From Kitasatospora phosalacinea (GTDB lineage: Bacteria; Actinomycetota; Actinomycetes; Streptomycetales; Streptomycetaceae), in NCBI RefSeq assembly GCF_000716545.1, contig NZ_JNWZ01000001.1, forward strand, positions 1 to 64,000: a DNA stretch of 64,000 bases, read 5' to 3'. Numbering within the stretch: position 1 is the stretch's first letter; every line of letters starts with the position of its first letter. The notes beneath the pieces were generated by a model that was not told where the DNA came from, did no database searches, and saw nothing but the letters and a program-made list of their open reading frames with translations. A program made the position numbers and the translations under genes. Of the stretch, positions 104 through 50,129 are shown piece by piece.

Positions 104-541
104 TCAGGGGGTGGTGCGGGGCGGTGCGGTGGGGACGGTGGGGGCGGGTGCGGTGGCCAGCAGGGCATCCGAGCGGCGGACGTCCTCGCGGGCGGCGGCC
201 AGCAGTTCGTCGACGGTGGCGAACTTCTCGGTGTCGCGCAGCCGGGCCACGAACCACAGCTCGACGCGTTCGCCGTACAGGTCGTCCGAGGTGTCGTGGC
301 AGTACACCTCGACGTGCACCTCGGACGAGTCGCCGAAGGTCGGGTTGGTCCCGATGCTGACGGTCGCCCGGTGCACGTCCCCGGTCGCCGGGCGGGTCAG
401 CCAGCCGCTGTAGATCGCGGGTGGCGGGACGACCGTGCCGGGTGCGGGGGAGAGGTTGGCGGTCGGGAAGCCGAGGCCCTTCCCCCGGCCGGCGCCGTGG
501 ACGACGGTTCCGACCAGGGGAGTCGGCGCGAACTCAGGCAT
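104..541 (-). CDS. rcaA: Stand-alone riboflavin kinase (RcaA-like)
   Basis: This 145-residue protein is a riboflavin kinase domain without the FAD synthetase half found in normal actinobacterial RibF. It should convert riboflavin and ATP to FMN. Visible motifs are GRGKGLGFPTANL (residues 18-30, with the PTAN nucleotide/flavin motif), SIGTNPTFG (62-70) and HVEVYCHD, whose Glu (about 78) is the likely catalytic base. Its first bases overlap the end of the upstream flavin reductase gene (534-541), so the two are probably translationally coupled. With a flavin reductase, an LLM monooxygenase and ribokinase beside it, its likely job is to supply FMN to the monooxygenase. The Pro/Thr-rich tail looks disordered. 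The domain call is secure; the rca assignment is inferred from context. Confidence 0.8.
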   Translation of the reverse strand: MPEFAPTPLVGTVVHGAGRGKGLGFPTANLSPAPGTVVPPPAIYSGWLTRPATGDVHRATVSIGTNPTFGDSSEVHVEVYCHDTSDDLYGERVELWFVARLRDTEKFATVDELLAAAREDVRRSDALLATAPAPTVPTAPPRTTP

Positions 542-1040
542 GGGGGGTGAGCTCGCGGAACTGGCTGGTGTGGAAGACCAGCGGCTCCACGCCCGGGAAC
601 AGCTCCGCGGAGAGCAGCTCCAGCAGGACGATCTCGTGGTCCCCGCCGTCGTACACCGGGCCGACCCGGGCGGTCAGCCACAGCGTCGCGTCGTGGATCA
701 GCACCGCGCCGCCGTCCGTGGCCTGCCAGGGCGTGCCGTCGAACCGGTCGCCCGCGCGGGAGGCGAGCTTGCGGCACAGTGCGCCCTGGCCGTGGCTGAG
801 CACGCTCAGGCCGAGCACCGGGGCCTCGGCCAGCCGGGGCCAGGTGGTGGAGGTGCGGGCCACGCTGACCGCGACCATCGGCGGTTCCAGCGAGATCGAC
901 ACGAAGGAGCTGGCCGCGAACCCGACCGGCTCGCCGTCGCGCAGCGCGCCGATCGCGACCACGCCGGTGGGGTACGCCCCGAACGCCCGCCGCAGCGCGC
1001 CCGCGTCCAGTGCTGAGGGGTGGTGAACGGGAGTGGCCAT
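534..1040 (-). CDS. rcaB: NAD(P)H-dependent flavin reductase (RcaB-like)
   Basis: This is a 168-residue protein of the flavin-reductase-like FMN-binding split-barrel family. It should reduce FMN with NAD(P)H and hand free FMNH2 to a partner monooxygenase. The family signature is clear: RRAFGAYPTGVVAIGA near residues 17-32, then PVGFAASSFVSISLEPPMVAVSV (39-61), then a C-terminal FHTSQFREL. It lies 48 bp after the LLM-class monooxygenase gene and overlaps the riboflavin kinase gene by 8 bp, which suggests one transcript. Such pairs are typical of two-component flavin monooxygenases (NtaA/NtaB, DszA/DszD type). The substrate of the system is not readable from this gene alone. Confidence 0.8.
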   Translation of the reverse strand: MATPVHHPSALDAGALRRAFGAYPTGVVAIGALRDGEPVGFAASSFVSISLEPPMVAVSVARTSTTWPRLAEAPVLGLSVLSHGQGALCRKLASRAGDRFDGTPWQATDGGAVLIHDATLWLTARVGPVYDGGDHEIVLLELLSAELFPGVEPLVFHTSQFRELTPHA

Positions 1041-1088
1041 GGCCGGTGCCGTCCTCTCGTGGTGCCGGAAGTGGTGCGAAGGGGCAGG

Positions 1089-2435
1089 TCAGTGGCGGTG
1101 CCGCGCGGCGGGGTGGCCGGCCGGCAGCGCCCGGTCGCCGGAGCCGGTCAGGCGCTCGCGCAGCGACTCGCCGTCCGCGTACTCGCCGCGGAAGGCCCCG
1201 CGCTCGCGCAGGATCGGCAGCACCGACTCGACGAACTCGACCGTGGAGGCGGGCTGCACGGTCGGCGAGAGCAGGAAGCCGTCCAGGTCGGCGCCCTCCG
1301 CCAGGGCGCAGATCTCGTCGGCGATCTCCTCGGCGGTGCCGACCACCGGGCGGGCGCCCACGCCGTGGGTGTGCCAGTCGGCCAGCACGTCGCCGACCGT
1401 CTTCCCCGCGAACCGGGCGACCTGGGTCTGCGACATCTCGGTGGACAGCTCGGTCATCGGGGTGTCCGGCGCGTACGAGGACAGGTCCAGGCCGGTGAAC
1501 ATCGCGTACGAGGCGACGGTGACCTCGGGGCGCTGCGCGTCCAGGATCCGCTGCCAGCGGCGCTCGGCGTCCGAGGTGGTGGCGCCGACCACGCAGGAGA
1601 ACGCCGACATCACCTTGACCTGGTCGGCCCCGCGCCCGGACCGCACCGCCTCGGCGCGGATCGCCCCGGTGTGGGCGGCCAGCTGCTCGACGCTGCCGCT
1701 GCCGACGAACATGCACTCGCCGTGCCGCCCGCCGACCCGCCGGCCCGCCGGGGACGCGCCGGCCTGGAACAGCACCGGGGTGCCCTGCGGGGAACGGGCG
1801 GTGTTGCCGTAGCCGCGCGAGCGGAAGTACGGGCCCTCGTGCTCGACCGGGTGCACCTTCGCCGGGTCGGCGAACCGGCCGGCCTTGTCCTTCTCCAGGG
1901 CGTCCGGCTCCCAGGCGCCCTCCCAGTACTTGTAGACCAGGTCGAGGAAGTCCTCGGCCATCGCGTACCGGTCGTCGTGCGCCACCATGTCCATCCCGAA
2001 CGCCTTGACGGCGGTGTCGGCGGTGCCGGTGGTGACCACGTTCCAGCCGAGGCGGCCGCCGGAGAGCTGGTCCAGGGTGGCGAGGCGGCGGGCGAACGCG
2101 TACGGCGGTTCGACCAGCACCGAGCCGGTCACCACCAGGCCCAGGTCGGTGGTGGAGGCGAGCAGCGCCGAGGCGATCACGAACGGGTCCAGCCGGGGCA
2201 GGTCGAGGGTCTCCTCGGTGGCGATCGGCGGGCGAGCCCCGTTGATCTCCGACCAGCCCCAGGCGTCCGCCAGGAACAGGAAGTCCAGCTTGGCGTCCTC
2301 GCACAGCCGGGCCACCTCCTGCCAGTAGCCGAGGGTGTCGAACAGGTGGCGGCGGCTGTCGGGGTGCCGCCAGGTGGCGGTGCCGCCGGCGTTGGTCTGG
2401 GCGTTCTCGAACAGGCCGAGCTTGAGGCTGCGCAT
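1089..2435 (-). CDS. rcaE: FMNH2-dependent monooxygenase of the NtaA/DszA class, probable riboflavin lyase
   Basis: This 448-residue protein belongs to the large-subunit group (NtaA/SnaA/DszA/SoxA) of the bacterial luciferase-like (LLM) family. Motifs include FLADAWG (about residues 54-60), a stretch EPPYAFARRLATLDQLSGGRLGWNVVT typical of the group (about 108-134), DRYAMAEDFL, and QAGASPAGR (flavin phosphate site region). The DszA-type insertion HEGPYFRSRG is present. Such enzymes use FMNH2 and O2 to oxidise organic substrates. The four-gene context (riboflavin kinase, flavin reductase, ribokinase) matches the Microbacterium rca cluster, where RcaE splits riboflavin into lumichrome and ribose. 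I therefore infer riboflavin as substrate; sequence alone shows only the family. The ATG at 2435 aligns with family N-termini. Confidence 0.65.
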   Translation of the reverse strand: MRSLKLGLFENAQTNAGGTATWRHPDSRRHLFDTLGYWQEVARLCEDAKLDFLFLADAWGWSEINGARPPIATEETLDLPRLDPFVIASALLASTTDLGLVVTGSVLVEPPYAFARRLATLDQLSGGRLGWNVVTTGTADTAVKAFGMDMVAHDDRYAMAEDFLDLVYKYWEGAWEPDALEKDKAGRFADPAKVHPVEHEGPYFRSRGYGNTARSPQGTPVLFQAGASPAGRRVGGRHGECMFVGSGSVEQLAAHTGAIRAEAVRSGRGADQVKVMSAFSCVVGATTSDAERRWQRILDAQRPEVTVASYAMFTGLDLSSYAPDTPMTELSTEMSQTQVARFAGKTVGDVLADWHTHGVGARPVVGTAEEIADEICALAEGADLDGFLLSPTVQPASTVEFVESVLPILRERGAFRGEYADGESLRERLTGSGDRALPAGHPAARHRH

Positions 2436-2487
2436 GGGTGTTCTCCGTTGAACAGGCAGGCAGTGCGGTGGTGGGGGTGACGGGTGG

Positions 2488-3390
2488 TCAGGGGGAGGGG
2501 TCGAGCTGCGCCGCGTACGGCATCGAGGACTGGGCGCCGAGCCCGGTGACGGCCAGCGCGGCCGCCCGGACGGCGCGGGCCGCCGCGGCGGGCAGGTCGG
2601 CGCCGCGGGCGAGGGCGTCGGCGAGGGCGCCGCAGAAGGTGTCGCCGGCGCCGACGGTGTCGACGGCGTCCACCACCGGGGCGGGCAGGTGGACGGCCGG
2701 GCGGCCCGGCTGCTTGATCAGCGCCCCGTCCGCGCCGAGCGTGACCACCACGGCCCCGCACGGCAGTCCGGCGCGCTCCAGCAGTTCGCGCGCGGCGGCC
2801 GGACCGGAGACCGGGCCGGTGCCGAGCAGCGCGGCCAGCTCGCCCAGGTTGGGCACCAGGACGTCGACGGCGGCCAGCACCCCGGGGTCGACCGGACGGG
2901 CCGGGGCCGGGTTGAGGACGACCGTGCCGCCCTGCTCCCGGGCCCGCAGCACCGCGGCCGCCACCACCTCGGCGGCCACCTCGTGCTGCACCAGCACCAC
3001 CTCGCCGGGCGTGCGGACCAGCCACTGCGGCAGGTCCTCGACCGAGAGGACGGCGTTGGCGCCGGGGTTGACCACGATGGTGTTCTCGCCCGCGCGGTCG
3101 ACCACCACCGAGGCGATCCCGGTGCGGGCGTCCGGCGCGGTCAGCACCGCGTCGAGGTCGATGCCCTCGGCGGCCAGCACCCGGCGGATCGGTTCGCCGT
3201 CCGCTCCGACCCGGGCCACCAGGCGCACCCGCGAGCCGAGCCGGGCGGCCGCGACGGCCTGGTTGGCGCCCTTGCCGCCGACGCCCTCGACGAAGCCCCG
3301 GGCGAGCACGGTCTCACCGGGCCGCGGCAGGTCCTCGACGGTCAGGACGAGGTCGCGGTTGACCGAACCGACGACGGTGATGGACGGCAT
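2488..3390 (-). CDS. rcaD: Ribokinase (PfkB family, RcaD-like)
   Basis: This 300-residue PfkB-family sugar kinase has the ribokinase pattern: N-terminal ITVVGSVNRDLV, substrate loop GGKGANQ (residues 38-44) and ATP/catalytic motif DTVGAGDTF (244-252) with Asp250 as catalytic base. It phosphorylates ribose to ribose 5-phosphate. I chose the ATG at 3390 because a GAGGAG ribosome binding site sits just upstream and the conserved fold begins there; the reading frame stays open back to 3477 but would place the LacI-type operator inside the gene. As first gene of the operon it would consume the ribose released from riboflavin. An ordinary ribose-utilisation role cannot be excluded, but no ribose transporter is present nearby. 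Confidence 0.88.
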   Translation of the reverse strand: MPSITVVGSVNRDLVLTVEDLPRPGETVLARGFVEGVGGKGANQAVAAARLGSRVRLVARVGADGEPIRRVLAAEGIDLDAVLTAPDARTGIASVVVDRAGENTIVVNPGANAVLSVEDLPQWLVRTPGEVVLVQHEVAAEVVAAAVLRAREQGGTVVLNPAPARPVDPGVLAAVDVLVPNLGELAALLGTGPVSGPAAARELLERAGLPCGAVVVTLGADGALIKQPGRPAVHLPAPVVDAVDTVGAGDTFCGALADALARGADLPAAAARAVRAAALAVTGLGAQSSMPYAAQLDPSP

Positions 3391-3411: not shown

Positions 3412-3427
3412 GGGAAATCGATTTCCC
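3412..3427. promoter_or_regulatory. LacI-family operator palindrome
   Basis: GGGAAATCGATTTCCC is a perfect 16-bp palindrome with the central CG step that LacI/GalR-family regulators recognise. It lies 22 bp upstream of the ribokinase ATG and 223 bp from the divergent LacI-type gene. It is also strikingly A/T-rich against its surroundings. The natural reading is that the adjacent regulator binds here to repress the ribokinase-monooxygenase-reductase-riboflavin kinase operon. Confidence 0.75.
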
Positions 3428-3498
3428 ACACTCTGGACCAGCACCCGCGAAGCGTCAAGTACCCTCGTGCTGCGCATCGCGCCAGCTCAGAGCGGGCC

Positions 3499-3649: not shown

Positions 3650-4648
3650 GTGACAGCGCCCCGACTCCTCGACGTGGCCGCCGCGGCCGGTGTCTCCCGG
3701 GCCACCGCCTCGCGCGTCCTGGCCGGCACCCCGCGCAACGTCGACCCCGACCTGGCCCGCCGCGTCGAGGAGGCCGCCCGGCGGCTCGGCTACCGCACCA
3801 ACCACTCCGCGCGGGCGCTGCGCACCGGCACCACCGGCACCGTCGGCGTGGTCGTCCCCTCGCTCGCCAACCCCTACTTCGTCCAGCTCGCCGACGCCAT
3901 CGCCCAGCAGGTCCGGGCGGCCGGCGGGCAACTGGTGGTCTCCGACGCGGCCAACTCGCCCGCCATCGAGGCCGAGCAGATCGACACCCTGCTGAGCGGA
4001 CGGGTGGACGGGCTGCTGGTCGTCCCGGTCTCCGCCGCCGCCTCCGGGCCCGCCGTCCGGGCCGCCGCCGGGTGCGCCCCCGTCGTGCTGTTCGACCGCT
4101 GGGCGCACGACTCCGGCACCGTCGCCGTCACGCTCGACAACGCCGCCGCGATGCGCCTGCTCCTCGACCACCTGGACGGCCTCGGCCGCCGCCGGATCGC
4201 CCTGGTCGCCGCCGACCAGGCGTCCTCCTCCGGCGCCGAACGGCTCGCCGCGTTCACCGCCGCCCGCGGCGCCGACGCCGTCACCGTCCTGCTCCCCAGC
4301 TTCACCACCGACGCCGGCCGCACCGCCGGCCGCCGGATCGCCGAACGCCGCGCCGAGGTCGACGCCGTCGTCTGCGGCGCGGACGTCCTCGCCGTCGGCC
4401 TGGTCAGCACCCTGCAGCGCTCGGCGGTCTCCGTCCCCGGCGAGATCGCCGTGACCGGCTTCGACGACACCGAGATGCTCGAACTGCTCGACCCCCCGAT
4501 CACCTCCATCCGCCACCCCCTCGCGGACATGGCCGAACACGCCCTCGCCCTCCTCCAGGGCCCGCCCGCCGACCGCGCCGAGAGCGTCGAACGCTTTCCC
4601 CCGCAACTGGTCGTCCGCGCCTCCACCGACGCGGACGTGAGCCCCTGA
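3650..4648 (+). CDS. LacI/GalR-family transcriptional regulator
   Basis: This is a 332-residue regulator of normal LacI-family length. The N-terminal helix-turn-helix LLDVAAAAGVSRATASRVLAG (about residues 5-25) is followed by the hinge region RTNHSARALRTG and a periplasmic-binding-protein-like sugar-sensing domain beginning GTVGVVVPSLANPYF. The C-terminal TGFDDTEM and ITSIRHPLADMA motifs are typical. The start is GTG at 3650, preceded by GGGGAAGGA. It is divergent from the ribokinase-led operon and the LacI palindrome at 3412-3427 lies between them, so local control of that operon is likely. The effector is unknown: ribose, riboflavin and lumichrome are candidates. Confidence 0.9.
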   Translation: MTAPRLLDVAAAAGVSRATASRVLAGTPRNVDPDLARRVEEAARRLGYRTNHSARALRTGTTGTVGVVVPSLANPYFVQLADAIAQQVRAAGGQLVVSDAANSPAIEAEQIDTLLSGRVDGLLVVPVSAAASGPAVRAAAGCAPVVLFDRWAHDSGTVAVTLDNAAAMRLLLDHLDGLGRRRIALVAADQASSSGAERLAAFTAARGADAVTVLLPSFTTDAGRTAGRRIAERRAEVDAVVCGADVLAVGLVSTLQRSAVSVPGEIAVTGFDDTEMLELLDPPITSIRHPLADMAEHALALLQGPPADRAESVERFPPQLVVRASTDADVSP

Positions 4649-4692: not shown

Positions 4693-8194
<3,502 letters not shown>

Positions 8195-48960: not shown

Positions 48961-50129
48961 GGATCGGCGTGGTGTGCCCGTACGACTGGGACGTGCCCGG
49001 CGGGGTGCAGTTCCACATCCGGGACTTGGCGGAGCACCTGATCCGGCTCGGGCACGAGGTGTCGGTGCTGGCGCCGGCCGAGGACGAGGAGGCGCTGCCG
49101 CCGTACGTGGTCTCGGCGGGGCGGGCGGTGGCGGTGCCGTACAACGGGTCGGTGGCGCGGCTGAGCTTCGGGTTCCTGTCGGCGGCCCGGGTGCGGCGCT
49201 GGCTGCGCGAGGGCCGGTTCGACGTGCTGCACGTGCACGAGCCGAACTCGCCGTCGCTGTCGATGCTGGCGGCGTGGGCGGCGACCGGTCCGATGGTGGG
49301 GACGTTCCACACCTCGAACCCGCGCTCGCGGGCGATGATCGCGGCCTCGCCGATCCTGCAGCCGGGCCTGGAGAAGATGTCGGGCCGGATCGCGGTGTCG
49401 GAGTACGCCCGGCGGACGCTGGTGGAGCACCTGGGCGGGGACGCGGTGGTGATCCCGAACGGCGTGGACGTGCGGTTCTTCGCGGACGCCGAGCCGGATC
49501 CGCGCTGGCAGGGCGGCGCCGCCGGGGGCGGGCCGGGCACGATCGGCTTCATCGGCCGGATCAACGAGCCGCGCAAGGGCCTGCCGACGCTGCTGGCCGC
49601 GCTGCCGCGGATCCTGGCCGAGCGCCCGGGCGTGCGGCTGCTGGTCGCGGGCAGGGGCGACGAGGAGGAGGCGGTGGCGGGCCTGGCGCCCGAGGTGCGG
49701 GCGCAGGTCGAGTTCCTCGGCATGGTCTCGGACCGGGACAAGGCGCGGCTGCTGCGCTCGGTGGACCTGTACGTGGCGCCGAACACCGGCGGCGAGTCCT
49801 TCGGCATCATCCTGGTCGAGGCGATGTCGGCCGGCGCGCCGGTGCTGGCCAGCGACCTGGACGCGTTCCGGCAGGTGCTGGACGGCGGCGCGGCCGGCGA
49901 GCTGTTCCCGGTGGAGGACGCGGACGCGCTGGCCGCCGCGGCGGTGAAGCTGCTGGGCAGCCCCGAGCGGCTGCTGGCGCTGCGCGAGGCGGCGTCCCGG
50001 CACGTGCGGCGCTTCGACTGGGAGACGGTCGGCGCCGAGGTGCTCTCGGTGTACGAGACGGTCACCGACGGGCGGCCGCCGGTGGCCGAGGTCGAACCGT
50101 CCGGCCGCCGTCCGCGTCCGAGTCGTTGA
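48957..50129 (+). CDS. pimA: Phosphatidylinositol alpha-mannosyltransferase
   Basis: PimA (390 residues) adds the first mannose from GDP-mannose to phosphatidylinositol on the cytoplasmic face. It is a GT4 enzyme with N-terminal RIGVVCPYDWDVPGGVQFHIRDLAEHL, FHTSNPRSRAMIAASPILQP and the nucleotide-binding GFIGRINEPRKGLPTLL and ESFGIILVEAMSAG. The start is TTG 48957, inside TTGA with the acyltransferase stop; no ATG or GTG is available before the conserved start, and GGGGGGCGGAG stands in front. Confidence 0.94.
   Translation: MRIGVVCPYDWDVPGGVQFHIRDLAEHLIRLGHEVSVLAPAEDEEALPPYVVSAGRAVAVPYNGSVARLSFGFLSAARVRRWLREGRFDVLHVHEPNSPSLSMLAAWAATGPMVGTFHTSNPRSRAMIAASPILQPGLEKMSGRIAVSEYARRTLVEHLGGDAVVIPNGVDVRFFADAEPDPRWQGGAAGGGPGTIGFIGRINEPRKGLPTLLAALPRILAERPGVRLLVAGRGDEEEAVAGLAPEVRAQVEFLGMVSDRDKARLLRSVDLYVAPNTGGESFGIILVEAMSAGAPVLASDLDAFRQVLDGGAAGELFPVEDADALAAAAVKLLGSPERLLALREAASRHVRRFDWETVGAEVLSVYETVTDGRPPVAEVEPSGRRPRPSR

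Follow-up and report, generated by a model that had tools for sequence, protein, structure and literature searches.

The window analysed here (64,000 nucleotides of Kitasatospora phosalacinea, NCBI RefSeq assembly GCF_000716545.1, contig NZ_JNWZ01000001.1, positions 1 to 64,000 of the forward strand) begins with four enzyme genes on its minus strand at 104-3390, and the question raised by this locus is which compound these enzymes take apart, and to what end. A first-pass annotation made from the letters alone had proposed a riboflavin-catabolic operon resembling the rca cluster, with the gene families visible and the substrate deduced from them, and the present analysis arrives at the same division. 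The locus is very likely an rca-type riboflavin-breakdown operon in an arrangement with a LacI-family regulator and a RibM-type carrier. Its enzymes are known from other bacteria, and the Kitasatospora operon is a well-supported new example, not a new kind of system.

The decisive evidence for the identity of the operon is the orthology of its monooxygenase (rcaE, riboflavin monooxygenase/lyase, 448 amino acids, 1089-2435, minus strand) to riboflavin lyase. In a scan of the PDB, 20 distinct sequences were matched by this protein, and the best, 5w48 ('Riboflavin Lyase'), scored 705.3 bits over residues 1-447 of 448 with an identity of 67.8%. The second-best match was dimethyl-sulfide monooxygenase (301.5 bits), and LadA (289.9), hexachlorobenzene dehalogenase (263.1), DszA (237.3), YtnJ (203), and the nitrilotriacetate monooxygenase 3sdo (201.4) scored lower still. 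Related loci (24) were fetched by one scan of genome contigs, and their neighbouring genes were identified by tblastn using the genes of the window. A tree was constructed from 36 rows, namely the window protein, the 24 fetched loci, seven solved chains (aligned stretches, not complete proteins), and four paralogues from NtaA-type pairs on contigs C12 and C91 of the same genome. The window protein, 5w48, and 23 of the 24 loci formed an RcaE clade (25 rows, support 100/100, stem of 0.95 changes per column), and DmoA, LadA, HcbA1, DszA, YtnJ, and 3sdo fell outside it together with the 24th locus, a 31% paralogue from Amycolatopsis (L032). Among the 448 window positions, 171 were invariant in the clade, and 27 of these were absent from all 11 outgroup rows.

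The tree was built without EmoA and without most other luciferase-like genes of the genome (29 PF00296 matches), and its root was placed at the midpoint. Warnings were given by the tree program for long branches meeting, the stem of the RcaE clade included, and for odd composition in five rows (among them L028 in the clade), and the fork of DszA (89/76) was not starred. Because of the long-branch warnings, only membership in the clade was relied on, and not the nearest outgroup; membership of the window protein is firm, and the order of the outgroups, including which is nearest to the clade, is not. The first-pass annotation had named a firm grouping with NtaA, EmoA, or DszA, away from RcaE, as a result that would refute its reading. 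The tree gave the opposite, and an NtaA- or DszA-type enzyme was rejected on this ground; an ethylenediaminetetraacetate (EDTA) monooxygenase of the EmoA type was rejected by score only (166.9 bits versus 705.3 bits for 5w48). The orthology to RcaE and the gene families of the operon are well shown as far as sequence comparison goes, and the rca-like reading is supported by both the clade and the score.

Family scans placed three rca-type partners beside the monooxygenase: a riboflavin kinase that stands alone, a flavin reductase, and a ribokinase. The open reading frames (ORFs) and family matches bear out the four same-strand genes previously proposed, as well as their compactness: 104-541 and 534-1040 overlap by 8 bases, followed by gaps of 48 bases to 1089-2435 and 52 bases to 2488-3390. 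The rcaA-like kinase (104-541, minus strand, 145 amino acids) is without the flavin mononucleotide (FMN) adenylyltransferase half of RibF; Flavokinase (PF01687, 111.8 bits) was its sole Pfam match, and GKGLGFPTAN and GTNPTFG...EVHVE, which we take to be motifs of the riboflavin kinase family, were both intact when read by eye. The rcaB-like flavin reductase (534-1040, minus strand, 168 amino acids) matched Flavin_Reduct (PF01613, 109.4 bits), and its top solved relative was the flavin reductase 3pft (141.2 bits). The rcaE product matched Bac_luciferase (PF00296, 142.4 bits), and the rbsK or rcaD-like ribokinase (2488-3390, minus strand, 300 amino acids) matched PfkB (PF00294, 202.0 bits), with ribokinases heading its PDB list (6znx, 191.9 bits). 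Two PF01687 matches were present in the genome, one in the operon and one at C85:26636-27004 within an open frame of 335 amino acids, the size of a housekeeping RibF.

Like the rca cluster of Microbacterium maritypicum G10, the locus keeps its riboflavin kinase and flavin reductase genes together with those for a ribokinase and a riboflavin monooxygenase. That cluster, with the names and activities of RcaA, RcaB, and RcaD, was reportedly described by Xu in 2016, and these roles agree with those assigned in the first-pass annotation. A two-component riboflavin monooxygenase is also said to have been described from Devosia riboflavina by Kanazawa in 2018, in an alphaproteobacterial host, unlike Kitasatospora. 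In the available text of PMC12934955, the Devosia enzyme is named RcaE and the rca cluster is seemingly specific to Actinomycetota and Devosia.

The gene set recurs in the related loci, and the operon is therefore not a chance neighbourhood. All five genes (regulator, ribokinase, RcaE, reductase, and kinase), with one more gene after rcaA, were present in 11 of the 24 loci (L009, L010, L012-L016, L018-L020, and L030), and the same set was found reordered, with a reductase of only 44% identity, in two Catenulispora loci, so that the complete LacI arrangement including the RibM-family gene is seen in 13 loci. In one more (L017), the contig ends before the ribokinase and regulator and the rest of the LacI-type set is present. 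The four enzyme genes were arranged otherwise in six loci (L023-L026, L029, and L031) of Microbacterium, Agromyces, Leifsonia, and Nocardioides, the G10 strain itself not being among them. There an ATP-binding cassette (ABC) transporter (NMT1-type binding protein, ATPase, and permease) precedes rcaE, the regulator is of the PadR family, and the reductase and kinase genes lie apart (Pfam families from L025 alone, the other five by similarity to L025), whereas in the window a LacI gene faces a palindrome and rbsK-rcaE-rcaB-rcaA are consecutive, with a RibM-family gene added in its relatives. Two packagings of rcaE are thus seen in Actinomycetota, differing by regulator and transporter.

Of 70 genomes from the genus, the present one counted, 16 had RcaE at E <= 1e-120, as did 18 of 394 drawn from the family (best four candidates per genome scored); 16 of the 18 are those very genus members, and two belong to other genera. 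The distribution is patchy and concentrated in one genus. A literature search for rcaE, riboflavin, and Streptomyces returned no report, from which it is not claimed that streptomycete clusters are unpublished, and PMC5399262 and PMC8877437 (available text) added nothing on streptomycetes.

The first base of the window is also that of contig C1 in a 7.6-Mb draft of 226 contigs, and because the window starts at a contig end, the operon is truncated on its 3' side and the next gene is missing. The further gene after rcaA in the relatives (14 of 24 loci, the 13 complete sets and L017) belongs to PF04973 (NMN_transporter; PnuC/RibM) in both copies scanned, L009 and L022; the other 12 copies are 80-97% identical to the protein of L009, itself a K. 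phosalacinea locus, with 70% for the second of the Catenulispora loci. PF04973 was matched twice in the present genome, on C27 and at C48:49217-49771. The copy on C48 scores 146.7 bits (L009 copy, 146.1 bits) and shares 95% identity with its L009 counterpart; most of the DNA that follows the C48 copy matches L009 at 87-95%. Contig C48 is 50,079 bases long, and the first 50 bases of the window agree with it at 49 of 50 positions, starting at its base 49,913; when extended to 60 bases, the overlap holds at 51 of 60, with C48 there passing into other sequence. From the 49/50 overlap the two contigs very probably adjoin, and the PnuC/RibM-family gene very probably comes next, starting 184 bases past rcaA and outside the window. 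The last bases of C48 presumably represent a sequencing-library adapter motif, which may bear on the assembly break between rcaA and the carrier gene.

In this family membership the carrier gene resembles RibM/PnuX of Streptomyces, a riboflavin transporter belonging to the ribBMAH cluster (PMC3239331, available text) and said to be paralogous to the PnuC family (PMC4418817, available text). It is unlike the copy on C27, which lies near the FMN riboswitch match of the genome among apparent riboflavin biosynthesis genes, as judged by eye. An FMN riboswitch on the operon itself was rejected, since the window had no match at the gathering threshold and the one match of the genome, in which 150 of 170 first-look candidates were scored, lies on C27. 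Both the flavokinase gene and the PnuC/RibM-family gene are second copies dedicated to the operon, which supports its assignment to riboflavin breakdown, and the RibM/PnuC-family gene beside the operon in relatives lends added support to the proposed riboflavin role.

The first-pass annotation had also credited the operon with its own regulator, and a divergent LacI-family gene with a GTG start (3650-4648, plus strand, 332 amino acids; PF00356, 44.3 bits; PF13377, 89.4 bits) indeed faces it, and a palindromic site is located at the promoter of the operon. The putative operator is a perfect 16-base palindrome, GGGAAATCGATTTCCC, at 3412-3427 between rbsK and the LacI gene. It is the sole match in the genome at one mismatch or fewer to the consensus of the relatives, the pattern read backwards had no match in the 7.6-Mb draft, and by chance the window would be expected to hold 0.02 matches when two mismatches are allowed. 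A putative -35 box, TTGACG (3453-3458, minus strand), stands 26 bases before the operator core, and a putative -10 box, CAGAGT (3430-3435, minus strand), lies 17 bases past the -35 box; the latter was picked by eye, is weak, and varies among relatives. In each of the 14 loci showing a LacI gene upstream, TTGACG is followed by the core after exactly 26 bases, and a search of both strands gave no core with this spacing in the remaining 10 of the 24 loci, of which L017 is without the upstream region. The palindrome is perfect in nine of the 14. The same core was present in nine of nine further loci of the same genus, at least five of which are the same records as loci already counted. Direct repression of this one promoter by the LacI protein would be the simplest reading, and a one-site regulon with a linked carrier is predicted.

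Beyond the regulator, the reading frame at 4693-5886 (minus strand) gave only a faint beta-propeller match (24.2 bits, cut-off 90) and nothing from NCBIfam; in four of the 24 loci (L009, L010, L012, and L014), a relative of it is no more than about 2 kb from the regulator.

Taken together, riboflavin would enter via the RibM/PnuX-type carrier, and part of it would be converted to FMN by the stand-alone kinase and reduced to FMNH2 by the reductase. RcaE, using FMNH2 and O2, would remove the ribityl chain from riboflavin to give lumichrome and ribose, and the ribose, once phosphorylated by the ribokinase, would feed the pentose phosphate pathway. Repression is predicted to come from the divergent LacI protein, bound to the single palindrome that lies immediately downstream of the promoter, and to last until the ligand of this protein appears, most likely ribose or ribose phosphate. 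The chemistry of RcaE and 'a set of 5 genes' are described in the available text of PMC12746152.

Several observations weigh against this scheme. Riboflavin as the substrate is deduced from sequence comparison, and RibM and PnuC substrates are hard to separate by sequence (PMC4418817, available text), so that riboflavin as the substrate of the carrier rests on operon context; moreover, the riboswitch-linked C27 copy matches the rca-linked gene at 42% only. The ribokinase scored 279.5 bits with TIGR02152, about 20 bits under the equivalog cut-off of 299.65, and the regulator fell under the cut-off of every NCBIfam model, the best being RbsR (171.6 bits, cut-off 382). The palindrome has one asymmetric pair in five of 14 loci. 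Within 8 kb, L011, a Kitasatospora locus, holds the regulator, ribokinase, and RcaE only, and lacks the reductase, the kinase, and a RibM gene; only one flavokinase match occurs in its genome (G011), and the palindrome is present at the locus. From this gene content, the reductase, kinase, and RibM partners are not indispensable, and L011 is a natural test for which partners RcaE requires. Finally, RcaE relatives with 55% identity at L027:7989-9368 and L028:2247-3623, in marine alphaproteobacterial metagenome-assembled genomes (Octadecabacter and Planktomarina), had no partner at E <= 1e-8, L028 spanning just 3.7 kb.

Among other explanations, the one that survives best, as a possible though rather unlikely one, keeps the same enzymes and gives them another purpose: the operon would serve to produce lumichrome and release it as a signal (for plant growth or as a quorum-sensing mimic), with ribose salvage as a by-product. 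The fate of lumichrome bears on this point. The lum cluster of Nocardioides simplex, with a Rieske dioxygenase and a two-subunit thiamine pyrophosphate (TPP) decarboxylase, would continue where RcaE stops, and PMC12746152 (available text) raises the signal reading on the ground that rcaE was found colocalised with lumichrome-degradation genes in no strain. In the present genome no lum-type cluster was seen by a coarse proxy consisting of the Rieske and TPP-enzyme families, and not of Lum sequences, and lumichrome is therefore probably left over or exported. The closest Rieske/TPP-enzyme pair lies 17 kb apart on C83, which was rejected as a lumichrome-degradation cluster: family scans of six of its 11 called ORFs gave NUDIX, SpoIIE, histidine kinase, sigma factor, TetR, and a three-domain TPP enzyme, none of them lum-like, the Rieske gene itself not being among the 11. 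Both the published pattern and the observations on C83 favour the signal explanation; the conserved ribokinase and a LacI protein with RbsR as its best match point instead to sugar salvage, and the lum check consisted of the two family proxies. More doubtful still is a specific form of it, in which the operon of Kitasatospora and its relatives is a dedicated source of lumichrome with its own single-site LacI switch and RibM-family carrier, the undegraded lumichrome being exported as a signal to plants or neighbours and paid for by ribose.

A separate observation concerns Nocardioides astragali, of the genus of the known lumichrome degrader, in which rcaE (L026:8001-9338) is accompanied by the ABC transporter and PadR genes. 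By the same two proxies, the closest Rieske/TPP pair of that genome is about 22 kb apart on its contig C8, and the species is a place to look for rcaE and lumichrome degradation together in one strain.

Protection against flavin analogues such as roseoflavin, or tuning of the flavin pool, in which the carrier admits analogues and RcaE destroys them, is improbable. In its favour, RibM of Streptomyces davawensis transports both roseoflavin and riboflavin (PMC3239331, available text); against it, such a defence has no need for a ribokinase or a sugar-type LacI regulator. A shift of the RcaE-type enzyme to a different N-ribityl compound, such as the deazaflavin precursor of F420, is very improbable; streptomycetes make F420, and this precursor has the same ribityl chain, but the 68% identity to riboflavin lyase, the short branches inside the clade, and the riboflavin kinase in the operon speak against it. 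The least probable, an ordinary NtaA/DmoA-type monooxygenase (sulfur, alkane, or chelator breakdown) standing by chance beside flavin genes, is favoured by the TIGR03860 NtaA/DmoA subfamily model (418.4 bits, cut-off 279.7), which RcaE itself would presumably pass too, and is opposed by the tree, the PDB scores, and the conserved riboflavin kinase and RibM-family neighbours.

Riboflavin breakdown by an rca-type operon thus remains the preferred explanation, and it places a process enzymatically known from Microbacterium and Devosia in antibiotic-producing relatives of the streptomycetes. Lumichrome is a plant-active pigment, and why bacteria make it from vitamin B2, as food or as a signal, becomes testable.

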